Assembly: GCF_030315915.2 (NCBI RefSeq)
Contig: NZ_CP135990.1
Span: forward strand, 2,480,001 to 2,544,000
Source of the DNA: Providencia zhijiangensis
GTDB taxonomy: Bacteria > Pseudomonadota > Gammaproteobacteria > Enterobacterales > Enterobacteriaceae
DNA length: 64,000 bases
Direction of reading: 5' to 3'
Shown one piece after another: positions 29,262 to 37,305 of the stretch (its first letter is position 1; each line of letters opens with the position of its first letter). Under the pieces are notes generated by a model, which had not been told where the DNA came from, ran no database searches, and worked only from the letters and a program-made list of their open reading frames with translations. The position numbers and the translations under genes are program-made.

Positions 29262-31340
29262 ATGCCTCAGACCTTAACCCTAACAGCCTCGAAGAAAAAG
29301 GACAGTATCTTCCTTTGGATTCTGATAGCTTGGCTGGGCTTCGCTCTGCTACCCTCATGGAGCCTCGACTACGGCTTATTCGACTCAACCCAAGATGAGA
29401 TCTTAGCTGCGTATGGCTGGAGCAGTGTCAATATTAGTTGGCTATGGTATTTATTGCCTTCTATCTTACTGTTAAGACCTATTACACCGGCCGATCGTAA
29501 TCAAAAATCTCGTCACTATCTTGATATCGCGGTTGCCGCTATCACGGCAGTTCTCGTGATTATTACTGCTTATTTAGAGGGTAAGGGATTAGGCTATTCC
29601 GCCATCACCTTATTTATCGCCCTTGGTATGATAATGACCCACGCCCTGACTCGTTTAGAGTGGCTGGGTGGCGACCAATTTGTTATTGGCTCCCTTATCA
29701 CCGTCGTCGCACTGATTGCGCTATTTATCGTCTTTCCCAGTGTGGCAATTTTTATTCCGATGTTTACTGATGGGAACGGAGATTTTGCACCATTTGCATT
29801 TGTGGCTATTTTAACTCAGTCACATATTGTTCAGGTCATCATCAACTCCATATTCCTCTCATTAGCCGTGGGTGTTGGATGTACCTTCTTTGGTTTAATC
29901 CTGGCGATTTACACCACCCGAATTGCTAAGCGCTCCGCGATTATTGGTCGCGTATTCTCGATTTTACCGATTGTGACCCCGCCGTTTGTTGTCGGTTTAG
30001 GCGTCACCTTAATGATGGGTCGTTCAGGCTATATTACTGAATTTTTAGCTACCTATATGGGGCTAGAAAATACTAACTGGCTATACGGCTTTACTGGTAT
30101 TTGGTTAGCACAGGTTCTCGCATTCACCCCGATGTCCTTTATGATCCTTGATGGTGCGATTAAAACTATCCATCCATCACTGGAAGAAGCGTCATACACC
30201 TTACGCGCTAACCGCTACCAGACATTCTTCAACGTGTTTATGCCACTGTTGAAACCTGCACTGGCTAACGCCTTCTTAATTGTGATTGTGCAATCCCTTG
30301 CCGACTTCAGTAACCCGTTAGTATTAGGGGGTAACTTCGACGTTCTGGCGACGCAAATCTATTTCTATATCACCGGTTCCCAGCTTGATTACCAAGCGGC
30401 CAGTACGTTAGGTGCTTCCTTACTTGTCTTCTCATTGCTGGTTTTCTGTGTGCAATACATGTGGATTGGTAAACGCTCTTACGTCACCGTTTCCGGTAAA
30501 TCTTACCGTGGTGATGTTCAGCCGCTGCCAGTTTCATTAGTCGCTACAGTAACCACTATTCTGGGTATTTGGGTGGCGTTTAACGTCTTACTGTACGGTA
30601 GCATCTTCTACGGAAGCTTCACGGTGAACTGGGGCGTGGACTACACCTTAACACTGGACAACTTTATCAAACTGTTTGGCCAAGGTTTTGATGATGGCGC
30701 ATGGCCGTCACTGTTAGATACCTTGTTATATGCGGGTATCGCTGCACCAATCACCGCGATTTTGGGTCTGCTTATCGCGTATATTGTGGTTCGACAAGAT
30801 TTCCGTGGTAAGAAAACCATCGAATTTACCACCATGTTGTGCTTTGCCGTACCGGGTACGGTGGCTGGGGTTTCTTACATCCTCGCCTTTAACGATACAC
30901 CGTTCTATTTAACCGGAACGGCGGCGATTGTGATTATCTCCATGACCATGCGTAACGTACCTGTCGGTATTCGTGCAGGTATCGCGGGATTAGGCCAAAT
31001 TGACAAATCGTTAGATGAGGCTTCCCTCAGCTTACGTGCAGGTTCAATGAGGACAATTTTCCACATCCTACTGCCATTATTACGCCCAGCGATTTTGTCG
31101 GCACTGATCTATAGCTTTGTCCGTGCTATCACCACCGTGAGCGCCATTGTGTTCTTGGTAACACCAGACACCCGCGTTGCGACGGCGTATATCTTGAACC
31201 GCGTTGAAGATGGTGAATACGGTGTGGCAATTGCTTACGGCTCTATTCTGATCGTGGTCATGCTCGCGATTATCTTCTTATTTGACTATTTAATTGGCGA
31301 AGCCCGTGTTTCACGTTCCAAAGCCAAAAATGCACAGTAA
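29262..31340 (+). CDS. afuB: Hexose-phosphate ABC transporter, fused permease
   Basis: A 692-residue membrane protein made of two tandem ABC permease domains, each with an EAA-type loop: [21 protein letters not shown] in the first half and [21 protein letters not shown] in the second. Extra N-terminal membrane segments occupy about residues 15-170. It would form the channel fed by AfuA and energised by AfuC. AGGGG lies nine bases before the ATG. Confidence 0.88.
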
Positions 31341-31356
31341 TCATGGAGTCACTGAC

Positions 31357-32397
31357 ATGACACAGAAAAGTTTCGTTGAATTAAAAAATATAACTAAGCG
31401 CTTTGGCGACAATACGGTCATTGACGATTTAAGCCTTTCCATCCCACAAGGGAGCATGGTCACTCTGCTAGGGCCGTCTGGCTGTGGTAAAACCACCGTG
31501 CTGCGCTTAGTCGCCGGTTTAGAAAAACCAACGGAAGGACGCATGTTTATCGATGGCGAAGATGTCACCGACCGCTCTATTCAACAGCGCGATATTTGTA
31601 TGGTTTTCCAATCCTATGCCCTCTTCCCGCATATGTCGTTAGGGGATAACGTGGGATATGGTTTGAAAATGCTCGGCTTGCCGAAGGCTGAAATCAAAAA
31701 ACGTGTAGACGAAGCGCTGGAGCTCGTGGACTTAGCAGGTTTTGCAGACCGTTTCGTTGACCAAATTTCCGGTGGGCAACAGCAGCGTGTGGCACTGGCA
31801 CGTGCTCTGATTTTAAAGCCGAAGGTGCTGCTATTTGATGAGCCCTTAAGTAACTTGGATGCTAACTTACGCCGCAGCATGCGTGAAAAAATCCGTGAAC
31901 TGCAACAGCAATTTAATATTACCTCACTGTACGTGACCCACGACCAGAGCGAAGCTTTTGCAGTTTCAGACATGGTTCTGGTGATGAACAAAGGTAAGAT
32001 CATGCAGTTAGGTTCACCACAAGGATTGTACCGCCAGCCTGCTTCCAAGTTTATGGCGAGCTTTATGGGTGATGCGAACATTTTCCCAGCCACACTCAGC
32101 AGCGATTCCGTGGATATCTTTAATTATCGTTTACCGCGCCCTGCGCAGTTTATGACAGATAAAACCCAAGTCACTGTCGGTGTTCGCCCTGAAGCCATCA
32201 CATTAAGCAAGCAAGGTGAAGATAGCCAACGCTGTACCATCACTCATGTGGCATATATGGGCCCGCAATATGAAGTCACGGTAGATTGGCATGGTCAATC
32301 GATGCTATTACAGATCAACGCAACGCAGCTGCAACCGTCTGTCGGCGAAGATCTTTATTTGCAAATCCACCCATACGGGATGTTTATTTTAGAATAA
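31357..32397 (+). CDS. afuC: Hexose-phosphate ABC transporter, ATPase
   Basis: A 346-residue ABC ATPase: Walker [10 protein letters not shown] at 39-47, signature ISGGQQQR near 137, Walker [12 protein letters not shown] near 157, and a C-terminal TOBE-type regulatory region. The longer frame would overlap afuB; I chose the ATG 16 bases after the afuB stop. It completes the afuABC importer and is followed by a strong terminator. Confidence 0.9.
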
Positions 32398-32423
32398 AGA
32401 TTTTCTGTTTTAGGTATATCTTA

Positions 32424-32446
32424 ACCGCCCGATTGGGCGGTTTTTT
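32424..32446 (+). terminator. Terminator after afuC
   Basis: ACCGCCC-GATT-GGGCGGT followed by six T: a textbook intrinsic terminator ending the uhp-afu transcript. Confidence 0.95.
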
Positions 32447-32460
32447 ATGGATAACAGATA

Positions 32461-32549
32461 AAAAAACACCCTATAAATCAAGCGGCTTATAGGGTGTTTT
32501 GTTTTTAGCTCTAAATTAAAACAGGTGTTTTAATCTCAGCCTAATTGCT
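32461..32549. repeat. Direct repeat A: decayed copy of the purL 3' end
   Basis: These 89 bases match 33343-33431 without gaps and with about eight differences; the last 38 bases are identical. The match runs over the purL terminator hairpin and into the last codons: on the minus strand the frame still ends ...QLG-stop, with Ile-Phe kept a few residues earlier. It is a remnant of a second purL 3' end and, with repeat B, brackets the toxin-antitoxin pair. Confidence 0.85.
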
Positions 32550-32620
32550 CACATGTATGATAAAAAATGGCGATACTTGCTATTTTCGTCACTAACACAG
32601 AATAAAAAAACGACGATTTA

Positions 32621-32665
32621 GTGTGACTTTGTATCACCCTTTGCTATAGTGTGACTAAGTTACAC
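32621..32665 (+). promoter_or_regulatory. Promoter and operators of the toxin-antitoxin pair
   Basis: Two palindromes, GTGTGACTTTGTATCAC (32621-32637) and GTGTGACTAAGTTACAC (32649-32665), start 28 bases apart and flank or overlap an extended -10 (TGCTATAGT). This suits autorepression by the antitoxin complex. Confidence 0.65.
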
Positions 32666-32687
32666 CTAATAGATATGCGAGGTTTAT

Positions 32688-32951
32688 ATGTCAACAACCA
32701 AATTAAGGCAGCAAGGCGGAGCCGTTGTTTTAACTATCCCAATTGAAGTCGCCAATATGGCAGGATGGGTTGTCGGTATGAAATTAAATATTGATGCAGT
32801 TGGAGAATCCATTTGCATAAAACCGGTTAAACGTGTGGCTAGAGGAAGAAAATCTATCAACGAGCTACTATCCGGTATTGATAAAGAAGAAATTACATTA
32901 TTAAACAGTGAAATCGATGATTCTGACCCAGAGGGAAATGAGGTTATTTAA
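32688..32951 (+). CDS. MazE/PemI/ChpS-type antitoxin
   Basis: An 87-residue protein with an N-terminal AbrB-type DNA-binding fold (LRQQGGAVVLTIPIEVANMAG) and an acidic C-terminal tail (SINELLSGIDKEE ... GNEVI) that resembles the toxin-binding tails of ChpS and PemI. Its stop overlaps the toxin start by one base (TAATG), so the pair is translationally coupled. It presumably represses its own promoter through the two upstream palindromes. Confidence 0.8.
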   Translation: MSTTKLRQQGGAVVLTIPIEVANMAGWVVGMKLNIDAVGESICIKPVKRVARGRKSINELLSGIDKEEITLLNSEIDDSDPEGNEVI

Positions 32952-33319
32952 TGGTAAAAGTGAAAAAGCCCCACAAAGGCCAGATTTGGCACATTAATGG
33001 CGATCCAGTCGCAGGTAAGGAATTCAAGGGGCCCCACTACTATTTAGTGATTACAGATTCACAAATCAACACCGCACTTGGTACGTCAATTTGCGTTCCT
33101 ATTACAAGTGGGGGGAGCCGTGCCAGAACTCAAAATGTCACTGTTTACTTAGATGGTTCAAGTACAGACACGGGGAACATTACTGGCTGTATCTTATGTT
33201 ATCAACTTCGCTCGTTGGATTTAATCGCCAGAAAAGCCACCTACTCAGCAACCCTAAATGAAGATATTTTCGAAGAAGTTCTCAGTAATATTATTGATAT
33301 CATTGACCCTCAAATTTGA
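32951..33319 (+). CDS. MazF/PemK-family endoribonuclease toxin
   Basis: A 122-residue toxin of the MazF/PemK family, which cleaves mRNA at short sequences. The family start is seen as KGQIWHINGDPVAGKEFKGPHYYLVI, then the conserved core VPITSGG and the ITGCILCYQLRSLDL segment that carries the usual catalytic-region residues. The cleavage sequence cannot be predicted. It is intact and paired with an antitoxin gene, so probably active. The pair sits between afuC and the purL 3' end. Confidence 0.8.
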   Translation: MVKVKKPHKGQIWHINGDPVAGKEFKGPHYYLVITDSQINTALGTSICVPITSGGSRARTQNVTVYLDGSSTDTGNITGCILCYQLRSLDLIARKATYSATLNEDIFEEVLSNIIDIIDPQI

Positions 33320-33342
33320 ATCTTTACCATTTTTGATGAAAC

Positions 33343-33431
33343 AAAAAACACCCTACAAATCAGGTGATCTATAGGGTGTTTAGTTTTTAGCTTTAAATTA
33401 AAACAGGTGTTTTAATCTCAGCCTAATTGCT
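33343..33431. repeat. Direct repeat B: functional purL 3' end and terminator
   Basis: The second copy of the 89-base repeat, covering the last codons of the intact purL and its terminator (AAACACCCTA / TAGGGTGTTT). About 91% identical to repeat A, 882 bases away. Confidence 0.85.
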
Positions 33432-36400
33432 TACGTGCATTACGGAAAATGCGCATCCATGGGCTATCTTCACCCCAGTTTTCTGGGTGCCAAGAGTTGC
33501 TTACCGTACGGAATACACGCTCAGGGTGCGGCATCATAATAGTCGCGCGACCATCCATTGATGTTACTGCCGTAATCCCATTCACAGAACCGTTCGGGTT
33601 CGCTGGGTATTGCTCCGTCACTTGACCGTAGTTATTCACAAAACGCATTGCCACCAGCGCGTTATTTTCTAACTGAGTTAAGTGAGCTGGTGCACGAGTT
33701 TCTACTTGACCTTCACCGTGAGAAACAGCAATCGGCATACGCGAACCCGCCATATCTTGCAGCAGTAATGATGGGCTGTTTGCAATTTCCACTAAGCTGA
33801 AGCGCGCTTCAAAGCGCTCTGAACGGTTACGTACAAAGCGAGGCCAATACTCAGCACCAGGGATCAGGTCATGCAAATTAGACATCATCTGGCAACCATT
33901 ACATACACCTAATGATAAAGTGTCTGGGCGGTTGAAGAAGGAGGCAAACTCATCACGAACACGGTTATTGAACAGAATGGACTTCGCCCAACCTTCACCC
34001 GCGCCTAATACGTCACCGTATGAGAAACCACCGCATGCCACTAGCGCTTGGAACTGTTCAAGAGACAAGTTACCCGCCAGTAAATCACTCATGTGGACGT
34101 CGATAGCATCAAAGCCTGCACGATCCCATGCCGCTGCCATTTCAACATGGGAGTTAACCCCTTGCTCACGCAGCACAGCCACTTTAGGACGAACGCCAGA
34201 CGCGATATACGGAGCAGCAATATCCTCTGCGATATCGTAAGTCAGCTTCACATTCAGACCCGGGTCTTGATTGTCTTTCTTCGCTTCATGCTCTTGATCT
34301 GCGCACTCTTCGTTATCACGCAGGCGCTGCATCTGCCATGTGGTTTCAGCCCAGCACTCACGCAGAGCACTACGGGAACCATTGTAAACGACCGTATCAC
34401 GGCTATTAATGATCACCGCATCGTCATGAGTTGCAGAACCAAGATAGTGAACGCAGCCTGCTAAGCCCGCATCGGTAAAACATTGCTCTACATATTGACG
34501 ATCCGCACCTTGGATTTGGATCACCGCGCCCAGCTCTTCATTGAACAACGCCGCTAAAGTGTCTTCATCAAATGAACTGATATCCACGTTAATACCGCAG
34601 TGACCCGCAAATGCCATTTCCACTAATGTGACAAACAGCCCGCCATCAGAACGGTCATGGTAAGCCAGTAATTTCTGCTCAGATAACAGTTTTTGGATGG
34701 TATTAAAGAAACCTAACAACAACGCTGGATCACGGACATCTGGCGCTTTATTACCTAACTGACGGTAAACTTGTGCCAGTGCAGAACCACCAAGCGCATT
34801 GTGACCTTGACCAAGGTCGATTAATAACAAGCCGTTATCTGTCGTAGTTTTCAGTTCTGGCGTGACCGTTAGACGAACATCTTCAACACGGCCAAATGCA
34901 CTGATAATCAATGATAATGGCGACGTCATTTCACGCTCTTCACCATTTTGCTGCCAGCGAGTCTTCATTGACATTGAGTCTTTACCCACTGGGATTGTCA
35001 AACCTAACGCTGGACACAGCTCCTCACCAACCGCTTTAACCGCTTCGTACAAGCCCGCGTCTTCCCCTGGGTGACCCGCTGCAGACATCCAGTTAGCAGA
35101 CAGCTTCACGCGCTTAAGGTCTTGCACATAAGAACAAGCTAAGTTGGTCAGAGCTTCACCCACAGCCATACGCGCAGAAGCGGCAAAATCCAACAGTGCC
35201 ACTGGCGTTCTTTCGCCAATAGACATTGATTCACCATAATAGCTATCCAAACTTGCGGTTGTCACCGCGCAGTCAGCGACTGGGATCTGCCATGGACCAA
35301 CCATTTGGTCACGTGCAACCATACCCGTCACAGTACGGTCACCGATAGTGATTAAGAAGGTTTTTTCTGCCACAGCCGGTAAATGCAGAACACGCTTAAC
35401 AGCTTCAGTTAAATCGATAGCGGTTCTATCCAGTGATTCAGGCTCGGCTTTCAGTGTCGTCACATCACGCAGCATCTTCGGCGTTTTGCCCAGCAATACA
35501 TCCAGTGGCATGTCGATAGGCTGGTTGTCAAAGTGCTCATCATTAAGGGTTAAATGACGCTCTTCCGTTGCTTCACCGATCACAGCAAATGGCGCACGTT
35601 CACGCTCACAAATCTCTGTGAATAAGGCGAGTTGCTCTGGCGCAACCGCCATCACATAGCGCTCTTGGGATTCGTTGCACCACACTTCCAATGGGCTCAT
35701 CCCCGGCTCATCATTCAGAATTTTACGCAGTTCAAAGCGACCACCACGACCGCCATCGCTCACCAATTCAGGCATTGCGTTGGATAAACCACCCGCGCCA
35801 ACATCATGAATAAACAGAATTGGGTTTTTATCGCCTAGCTGCCAACATTTGTCGATCACTTCTTGGCAACGACGCTCCATTTCGGCGTTGTCACGTTGAA
35901 CAGAAGCAAAATCAAGATCCGCCGCAGATTGACCGGATGTCATGGATGATGCTGCCCCGCCCCCTAGACCGATATTCATCGAAGGGCCACCGAGAACGAT
36001 TAGCTTAGCGCCAACAGTAATTTCGCCTTTTTGAACGTGATCTGCACGGATGTTACCAATACCGCCTGCTAACATAATTGGCTTATGGTAACCGCGTAAT
36101 TCTTCACCATTATGGCTATTAACTTTCTCTTCATAGGTACGGAAATAACCTAATAAAGCGGGACGCCCAAATTCGTTGTTAAATGCCGCACCGCCTAAAG
36201 GACCTTCCGTCATAATATCGAGTGCGGTCACAATACGCTCTGGCTTGCCAAAATCTTCTTCCCAAGGTTGCTCAAAACCCGGAATACGTAAGTTGGAAAC
36301 GGAGAAGCCGACTAAACCTGCTTTTGGTTTTGCACCGCGACCTGTCGCGCCTTCATCACGAATTTCACCGCCAGAACCAGTTGCAGCTCCCGGCCATGGA

Positions 36401-37305
36401 GAAATTGCCGTTGGGTGGTTGTGGGTTTCCACTTTCATCAAAATATGTGCATCTTCTTGATGGTAACGATAAGTACGTCCATCTGGCTCAGGGAAGAAAC
36501 GACCCACTGAAGAGCCTTCCATTACTGCCGCATTATCTTTATAGGCAGACAGAACGTGATCTGGCGTTTTTTCGAAAGTATTTTTGATCATTTTAAACAG
36601 GGATTTTGGCTGTGTTTCCCCATCAATAATCCAATCCGCATTGAAAATTTTATGGCGGCAATGCTCTGAGTTTGCTTGCGCAAACATATACAGCTCAACA
36701 TCCGTTGGGTTACGTTTTAACCCTGTGAATGCCTCTAATAGATAATCAATTTCATCGTCAGCTAACGCTAAGCCCATCTCTTTGTTAGCAGTATCGAGTG
36801 CTTGGCGTCCGCCTGCGATAATATCAATCACTTTCATTGGGGCAGGCTGCTGCTGAACAAATAGCGCTTCGGCTTGTTCAAAAGAGGCAAAAACCGTTTC
36901 CATCATGCGGTCATGTAACAGACTGATGACCAGATCCCACTGCTCGCTTGTCAGTGAGTCGGCTTGAATATAATAGGCAACGCCGCGTTCAATACGTTTA
37001 ACCTGTGTTAAGCCACAGTTATGCGCGATATCCGTTGCTTTAGAAGACCAAGGAGAGATAGTTCCTGGGCGTGGGGTGACTAAAATCAGTTTTCCAAATG
37101 GCTCATGCTCTGCCAGAGAAGGACCATATTTTAACAAACTACTCAGTTTACCTTGCTCACTGCCACTTAATGGGGCTGATAGCTCAGCAAAATGCATATA
37201 TTCAGCATAGATATCCGTTACAGGGAGCTGTTTTTCAGCAAACAGCGCCAAAAGGCGGGTAATACGAAATGCTGATAGTGCCGGTGAGCCACGCAAAATT
37301 TCCAT
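33418..37305 (-). CDS. purL: Phosphoribosylformylglycinamidine synthase
   Basis: A 1295-residue single-chain enzyme for the fourth step of purine synthesis, using ATP and glutamine. The N-terminal and two AIRS-like domains are followed by a C-terminal class-I glutaminase with its cysteine in [10 protein letters not shown] and a His in MPHPERVF. Length equals the E. coli protein. A PurR-like operator lies about 85 bases upstream. Its 3' end is duplicated beyond the toxin-antitoxin pair. Confidence 0.98.

Follow-up and report, generated by a model that had tools for sequence, protein, structure and literature searches.

The afuC-purL junction of Providencia zhijiangensis, which lies in the 64,000-nucleotide stretch of chromosome analyzed here (the window), carries an ordinary toxin-antitoxin pair, ordinary also in its likely function, together with a second, displaced copy of the purL 3' end, and comparison with relatives suggests that this extra gene end is a recombination scar at a site of toxin-antitoxin turnover rather than the sign of a self-moving element. 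The explanation we favor, and to which we give about an even chance, is that the pair belongs to the PemIK/Kid-Kis kind of chromosomal type II toxin-antitoxin loci (MazEF superfamily), is old at this site and has repeatedly been lost, decayed or exchanged, and that the displaced copy (repeat A) is the recombination scar of a crossover in a short core at the gene end.

Structurally, the locus is framed on the left by afuC, an ABC transporter ATP-binding gene (31357..32397, plus strand, from the ORF list; its name comes from an earlier note made from the sequence alone), followed by the intrinsic terminator of afuC (32423..32442, plus strand; an 8-bp stem with 6 G-C pairs and a T tail), and on the right by intact purL (33418..37305, minus strand, from the ORF list), which encodes 1295 aa and ends QLG-stop. 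Between these genes, repeat finding returned a 109-nt direct repeat at 86% identity with a spacing of 882, comprising repeat A (32461-32569) and repeat B (33343-33451), neither assigned to a strand. Exact matches number 94/109 overall and 81/89 (91%) across the first 89 bases, which bears out the earlier note's 89-base direct repeat, about 91% identical, bracketing a MazF-type pair. That note had also taken one copy for the true purL end with its terminator and the other for a decayed end that still finishes in QLG-stop, and both identifications hold: repeat B continues into intact purL and holds a terminator that purL shares with the plus-strand gene pemK, and repeat A is a displaced purL end that retains a terminator hairpin, the QLG-stop codons and the start of a coding stub. 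The hairpins of A (32463-32500, minus strand) and B (33346-33381; minus-strand fold z = −7.2) both fold well on either strand (z from −3.5 to −7.2). A search of the whole genome (3.80 Mb) found only these two copies, the second with E = 3e-31, and a dispersed repeat or transposon is thereby ruled out.

The longest run identical between A and B is a 38-bp core around the purL stop codon (32512..32549, no strand assigned), which is the presumed crossover site. The stub in repeat A (32536..32590, minus strand, its end reading QLG-stop) was delimited by an in-register match and a multiple alignment, and the stretch beyond QLG-stop seems to be the coding end of purL in a decayed state: of the 25 bases that come next, 15 agree with purL in register, an equally good match being found at 3 of 8964 other window positions, and the gapped alignment to purL has p = 0.003 by mononucleotide shuffles. 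Past the last codons, the multiple alignment holds 16 mismatches in 58 columns plus 10 gap columns, whereas the terminator parts of A and B differ at 8/63 positions, i.e., far less decay. Another source for the stub was considered and rejected, since among 392 family genomes, the window's own aside, only DNA to the right of the stub was matched. The stub joins pair-side DNA just left of an A-tract segment (32599..32614, no strand assigned), and A-tract motifs flank the A segment on either side (near 32460; 32599-32614) and also stand ahead of B.

Functionally, the 882-bp unit contains only two genes between the repeats (among ORFs of at least 60 aa), both of the toxin-antitoxin pair, so the earlier statement that it lacks an integrase stands. 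The PemI/MazE-like antitoxin gene (32688..32951, plus strand, 87 aa) was assigned by profile matches to NCBIfam NF052488 (E = 8e-13 over residues 3-86, below that family's cut-off) and Pfam MazE_antitoxin PF04014 (E = 3e-4; 21.1 bits, below the 24.7 gathering score). The toxin gene (32951..33319, plus strand, 122 aa) encodes a predicted PemK/Kid/MazF-like endoribonuclease, matching Pfam PemK_toxin PF02452 above its gathering score (E = 2.5e-18; 66.7 versus 23.1 bits) and, as its best solved relative, the Kid structure 1m1f (E = 7e-15); toxin activity is predicted from this resemblance. As in the Kid/PemK and Kis/PemI systems, the antitoxin gene lies upstream, the toxin gene overlaps its stop by 1 base, and the PemK domain exceeds the Pfam gathering score; unlike ChpB, MazF and the Agrobacterium-type pair, this pair scores under the NCBIfam equivalog cut-offs of all three, and we therefore treat it as a separate subgroup. 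Neither protein matched a PADLOC defense-system label at E 0.01. Upstream, the promoter/operator region (32619..32666, plus strand) holds a TATAGT −10-like hexamer and a 20-nt direct repeat that may be the operator; DNA similar to this region lies upstream of related loci in G002, G007 and a few other genera (8 of 392 genomes, the window's own included).

We compared the junction across 24 Providencia genomes, including the window's (G000) and the one further genome available for its species (G023). The afuC gene adjoins purL in 10 of them, the window's included, and was not found in the DNA fetched beside purL in the other 14; half of the 10 junctions have the pair and half do not. In the whole sample the pair was found in five genomes (the window's, G002, G003, G007 and G017), in all five between afuC and purL, with DNA identities to the window's pair of 94% in G002 and G003 and 73-74% in G007 and G017. 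Repeat A is absent from all four other carriers. In G002 and G003, the pair comes directly after the afuC terminator region and the A-tract that corresponds to window 32599-32614, with the match to the window starting at 32599 and 32598, respectively. Among the pair-less junctions, the afuC-purL gap measures 140 bp in G010, 155 bp in G001, 78 bp in G011, 423 bp in G023 and 2677 bp in G015, where it is occupied by other genes (by eye, MFS-type transporter, deaminase-like and ankyrin-repeat-like frames; L058:3936-6612). The DNA on the 3' side of purL varies in the genus beyond this, one genome having an 869-aa RTX-repeat protein there (L043:1052-3658) and another a 772-aa LRR-NEL protein (L055:2332-4647).

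Both G010 and G023 have one purL end and no pemK match in their whole genomes. The single end in G023 is preceded by an antitoxin remnant, which could be a decayed or solitary antitoxin: its 59-codon frame (L033:570-749) is N-terminally shortened, has no toxin beside it, and matches the C-terminal half of the antitoxin with 54-56% identity to the five carriers. The absence of the unit from a same-species genome with a single purL end agrees, as far as it goes, with the earlier proposal that an 882-bp unit had inserted at purL. Repeat A in displaced form without the pair, which would have told against that proposal, was present in no relative, the empty sites simply having one purL end. The trace of the repeat structure that it had expected at empty sites amounts to one copy only, but the window junction left of A is almost letter-for-letter that of the G010 empty site. 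Past the stub on its right, the window sequence matches the DNA that precedes the pair on the left in G002 and G003. Under the explanation we favor, the pair would have been kept, lost, reduced to an antitoxin remnant or replaced at this site in different lineages.

Evolutionarily, the identity of the pair tracks that of its neighbors in close species, which fits an old resident of the site: pemIK, afuC and purL of the window are 94.6%, 93.5% and 94.1% identical to those of G002, and 94.0%, 92.8% and 94.6% identical to those of G003. In G007 and G017, though, the neighbors stand nearer to the window's (78-81%) than the pair does (74-75%), and between G002 and G003 the pairs are closer (97.5%) than the neighbors (94-96%), so the pair may have undergone some horizontal exchange. 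A tree of the flanks (about 31 kb) groups the window with G023 (support 100) and then with G010 (78), and G002 with G003 (59); given the weak support of 78 and 59, the order of gains and losses is not readable from it. The window and G023 are close on both sides of the unit, and with no purL difference over 33418-33686 and little in afuC, the exchange appears confined to the intergenic unit; the first G010 difference in purL falls at 33513, and a G010-like foreign tract of up to 95 bases would escape notice. Elsewhere in the window, an afuB-type permease gene region (29400-30399) differs from G023 at 16 and 20 positions in its two 500-base bins, where the 22 other bins have 0-8, and is probably a separate recombination tract.

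The two parts of repeat A contrast in age. Its terminator differs from that of G023 at 3/63 positions, compared with the 16/58 mismatches and 10 gap columns of the stub (Fisher p = 0.0008). With purL fourfold-site distances as the clock (0.026 to G023, 0.23-0.24 to the close species and 0.66 to G001), the 16 observed stub changes compare with 0.75 expected since the split from G023, 6.4 since the radiation of the close species (p = 0.001 for 16) and 15.4 since the older split from G001, the last of which fits. By this measure the stub looks far older than the species and probably predates the group of close species as well, although differing constraint on terminator and stub could explain the unevenness of A.

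From this and the alleles described above, we infer that an allele lacking the pair and one carrying it probably crossed over in the 38-bp core at the gene end, leaving repeat A as the scar. One partner would have been an allele without the pair, in the order afuC, terminator, purL end; the other would have been a pair-carrying allele or fragment that ran from the pair through terminator B to the gene-end core and had an older, decayed purL stub on the far side of the pair. Joined within the core, where purL has its stop codon, the two would have left the terminator of the pair-less allele beside afuC as repeat A, and purL intact. RecA could now delete the 882-bp unit by ordinary recombination between A and B, with purL unharmed. 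Among the features that argue for this course of events are that G002, G003, G007 and G017 have the pair at this junction but no repeat A, that the junction left of A is G010-like, and that the pair flank right of the stub is G002/G003-like; the change may have been a gain of the pair here or its loss in the sister strain. Mechanistically, homology-facilitated illegitimate recombination (PMC3240628) would give this structure from one homologous join, here putatively on the purL side, and one irregular join, putatively of the stub to pair-side DNA.

Some observations weigh against this crossover. Repeat B differs from G023 at 9/63 terminator positions and A at 3/63, a difference that is not significant (Fisher p = 0.13), and the 3 differences of A are not unusually low against a between-species mean of 5.7 (P = 0.18), so these comparisons are only suggestive of A's terminator being the native one. 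The core reads AC in G023 and GT in both A and B, and an extra step is therefore needed. We had also considered the switch in G023 from A-like sites on the left to B-like sites on the right as proof of a loop-out, and downgraded it, since the terminators of G002 and G003 show similar, mostly A-like patterns; the G023 pattern is not specific, given that the terminator of A resembles those of the clade and that of B stands apart.

The same comparisons bear on whether a second allele was involved at all. If the lineage already had the pair, about 130 bp of the purL end could have been copied in place to a position upstream of it, by template switching or slippage between A-tracts, and the stub decayed later, an account we regard as possible but doubtful. 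The A-tracts at both ends of the A segment and before B, the hairpin-rich purL end and terminators, and the single A-tract of G002 and G003, which resemble a pre-insertion state, all speak for it. A copy of B ought, however, to be closest to B, and the terminator of A is nearer to that of G023 (3/63) and of G002 (4/63) than to B (8/63), small numbers though these are; the agreement of the junction left of A with the G010 empty site likewise tells against copying in place.

The age of the stub could instead mean that the whole A-pair-B arrangement predates the group of close species and was repeatedly lost, the pair through A/B recombination in G023 and G010, and A through deletion between A-tracts in G002 and G003. 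Consistent with this, G023 has A-type terminator sites at 7/8 positions left of the core and purL sites at 7/7 positions right of it, and G010 combines an A-type left junction with mostly B-type terminator sites. Such an ancestral arrangement nevertheless seems rather unlikely to us, as four lineages must have lost parts of it separately, the G023 pattern is not diagnostic when G002 and G003 terminators are mostly A-like too, and A and G023 should differ at fewer than 3/63 positions had they parted only at the within-species level.

From the perspective of mobility, the crossover reading contrasts with one in which the unit moves as an element. The position at a gene 3' end, the regenerated end with its own terminator and the displaced end on the far side are what would be expected of an integrase-dependent or trans-mobilized element that targets and restores the purL end, like genomic islands, and the earlier note had likewise written of insertion as integrating elements do. 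We consider such an element highly improbable: the unit has no recombinase gene, only the two toxin-antitoxin genes, the bracket occurs in one of five carriers, the repeat has just two copies genome-wide, in 13 other related loci no repeat directly encloses the pair, and a 27-base piece of the stub has no exact match in viral contigs. The comparison with integrating elements finds no support in the four carriers without repeat A or in a G002/G003 pair that has diverged about as much as its flanks; the repeat is therefore not part of what places the pair at the junction. Of the broader suggestion that the unit is mobile, the displaced end and the absence of the unit from G023 stand, but not a bracket in other carriers. 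There also remains a slim chance that this is an integrase-free toxin-antitoxin cassette with a copy of the host gene 3' end (terminator, core and stub) as a homology handle, by which RecA would insert it at purL or remove it, leaving the gene undamaged.

Several further origins were sought and set aside. No tRNA lies within the window, which rejects a tRNA-type target. A cassette of phage or plasmid origin bearing these repeats was rejected too: every record matched covers less than 80% of the locus, the plasmid matches (19 records) being purL ends or weak similarity to the antitoxin region, and the phage matches (3 records) lying solely in the purL-end part. As to whether such pairs lie between repeats, as had been supposed, 3 of the 13 other related loci (L081, L082 and L087) have direct repeats, which partly favors the idea, but at about 1 kb or more from the pair, and none immediately brackets it; in this test, the flanks available for G002 and G003 were shorter (about 700-770 bases). 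In Erwinia typographi (L082 and L087), two near-identical direct-repeat blocks of several hundred bases each, whose starts lie about 3.1 kb apart, flank an SSB gene together with a related pair. This too is a duplication, though of something other than a gene end adjoining the pair; the contigs look like plasmid leader DNA and may be of plasmid origin. A Mixta contig has a shorter direct repeat than these blocks, and the contig of a pair in Morganella psychrotolerans (L088/L090) is also listed as viral in IMG/VR, where length and range agree.

Among known systems, the locus resembles the variable chromosomal toxin-antitoxin loci at relA-mazG, dinB-yafP and folA-apaH (the last with ccd, E. coli O157:H7), where a pair is present, absent or replaced between fixed neighbors. 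Decay has reportedly been seen for ccdO157 as well. It is unlike those loci in that one strain here retains, next to the pair, a second copy of a host gene end. In integrative elements at gene 3' ends a duplicated end likewise brackets the cargo and the functional copy keeps the gene, whereas the unit here has no integrase, its bracket is missing in other carriers, and there is no attachment-type conservation. In the open-access literature searched, we found no paper on this locus, nor on toxin-antitoxin systems together with Providencia and purL.

How toxin-antitoxin systems integrate was described as still unelucidated in section 16 of a 2020 review (PMC7167474). If the homology-handle cassette were true, gain and loss at the site would follow one rule, and other toxin-antitoxin loci may do likewise. 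The scar itself is a modest, testable curiosity, and with carriers, empty sites, a remnant and one duplicated gene end at a single junction, the Providencia locus offers a concrete case for the route by which such pairs enter and leave chromosomes, that is, by homologous recombination at a gene end or by a dedicated recombinase.
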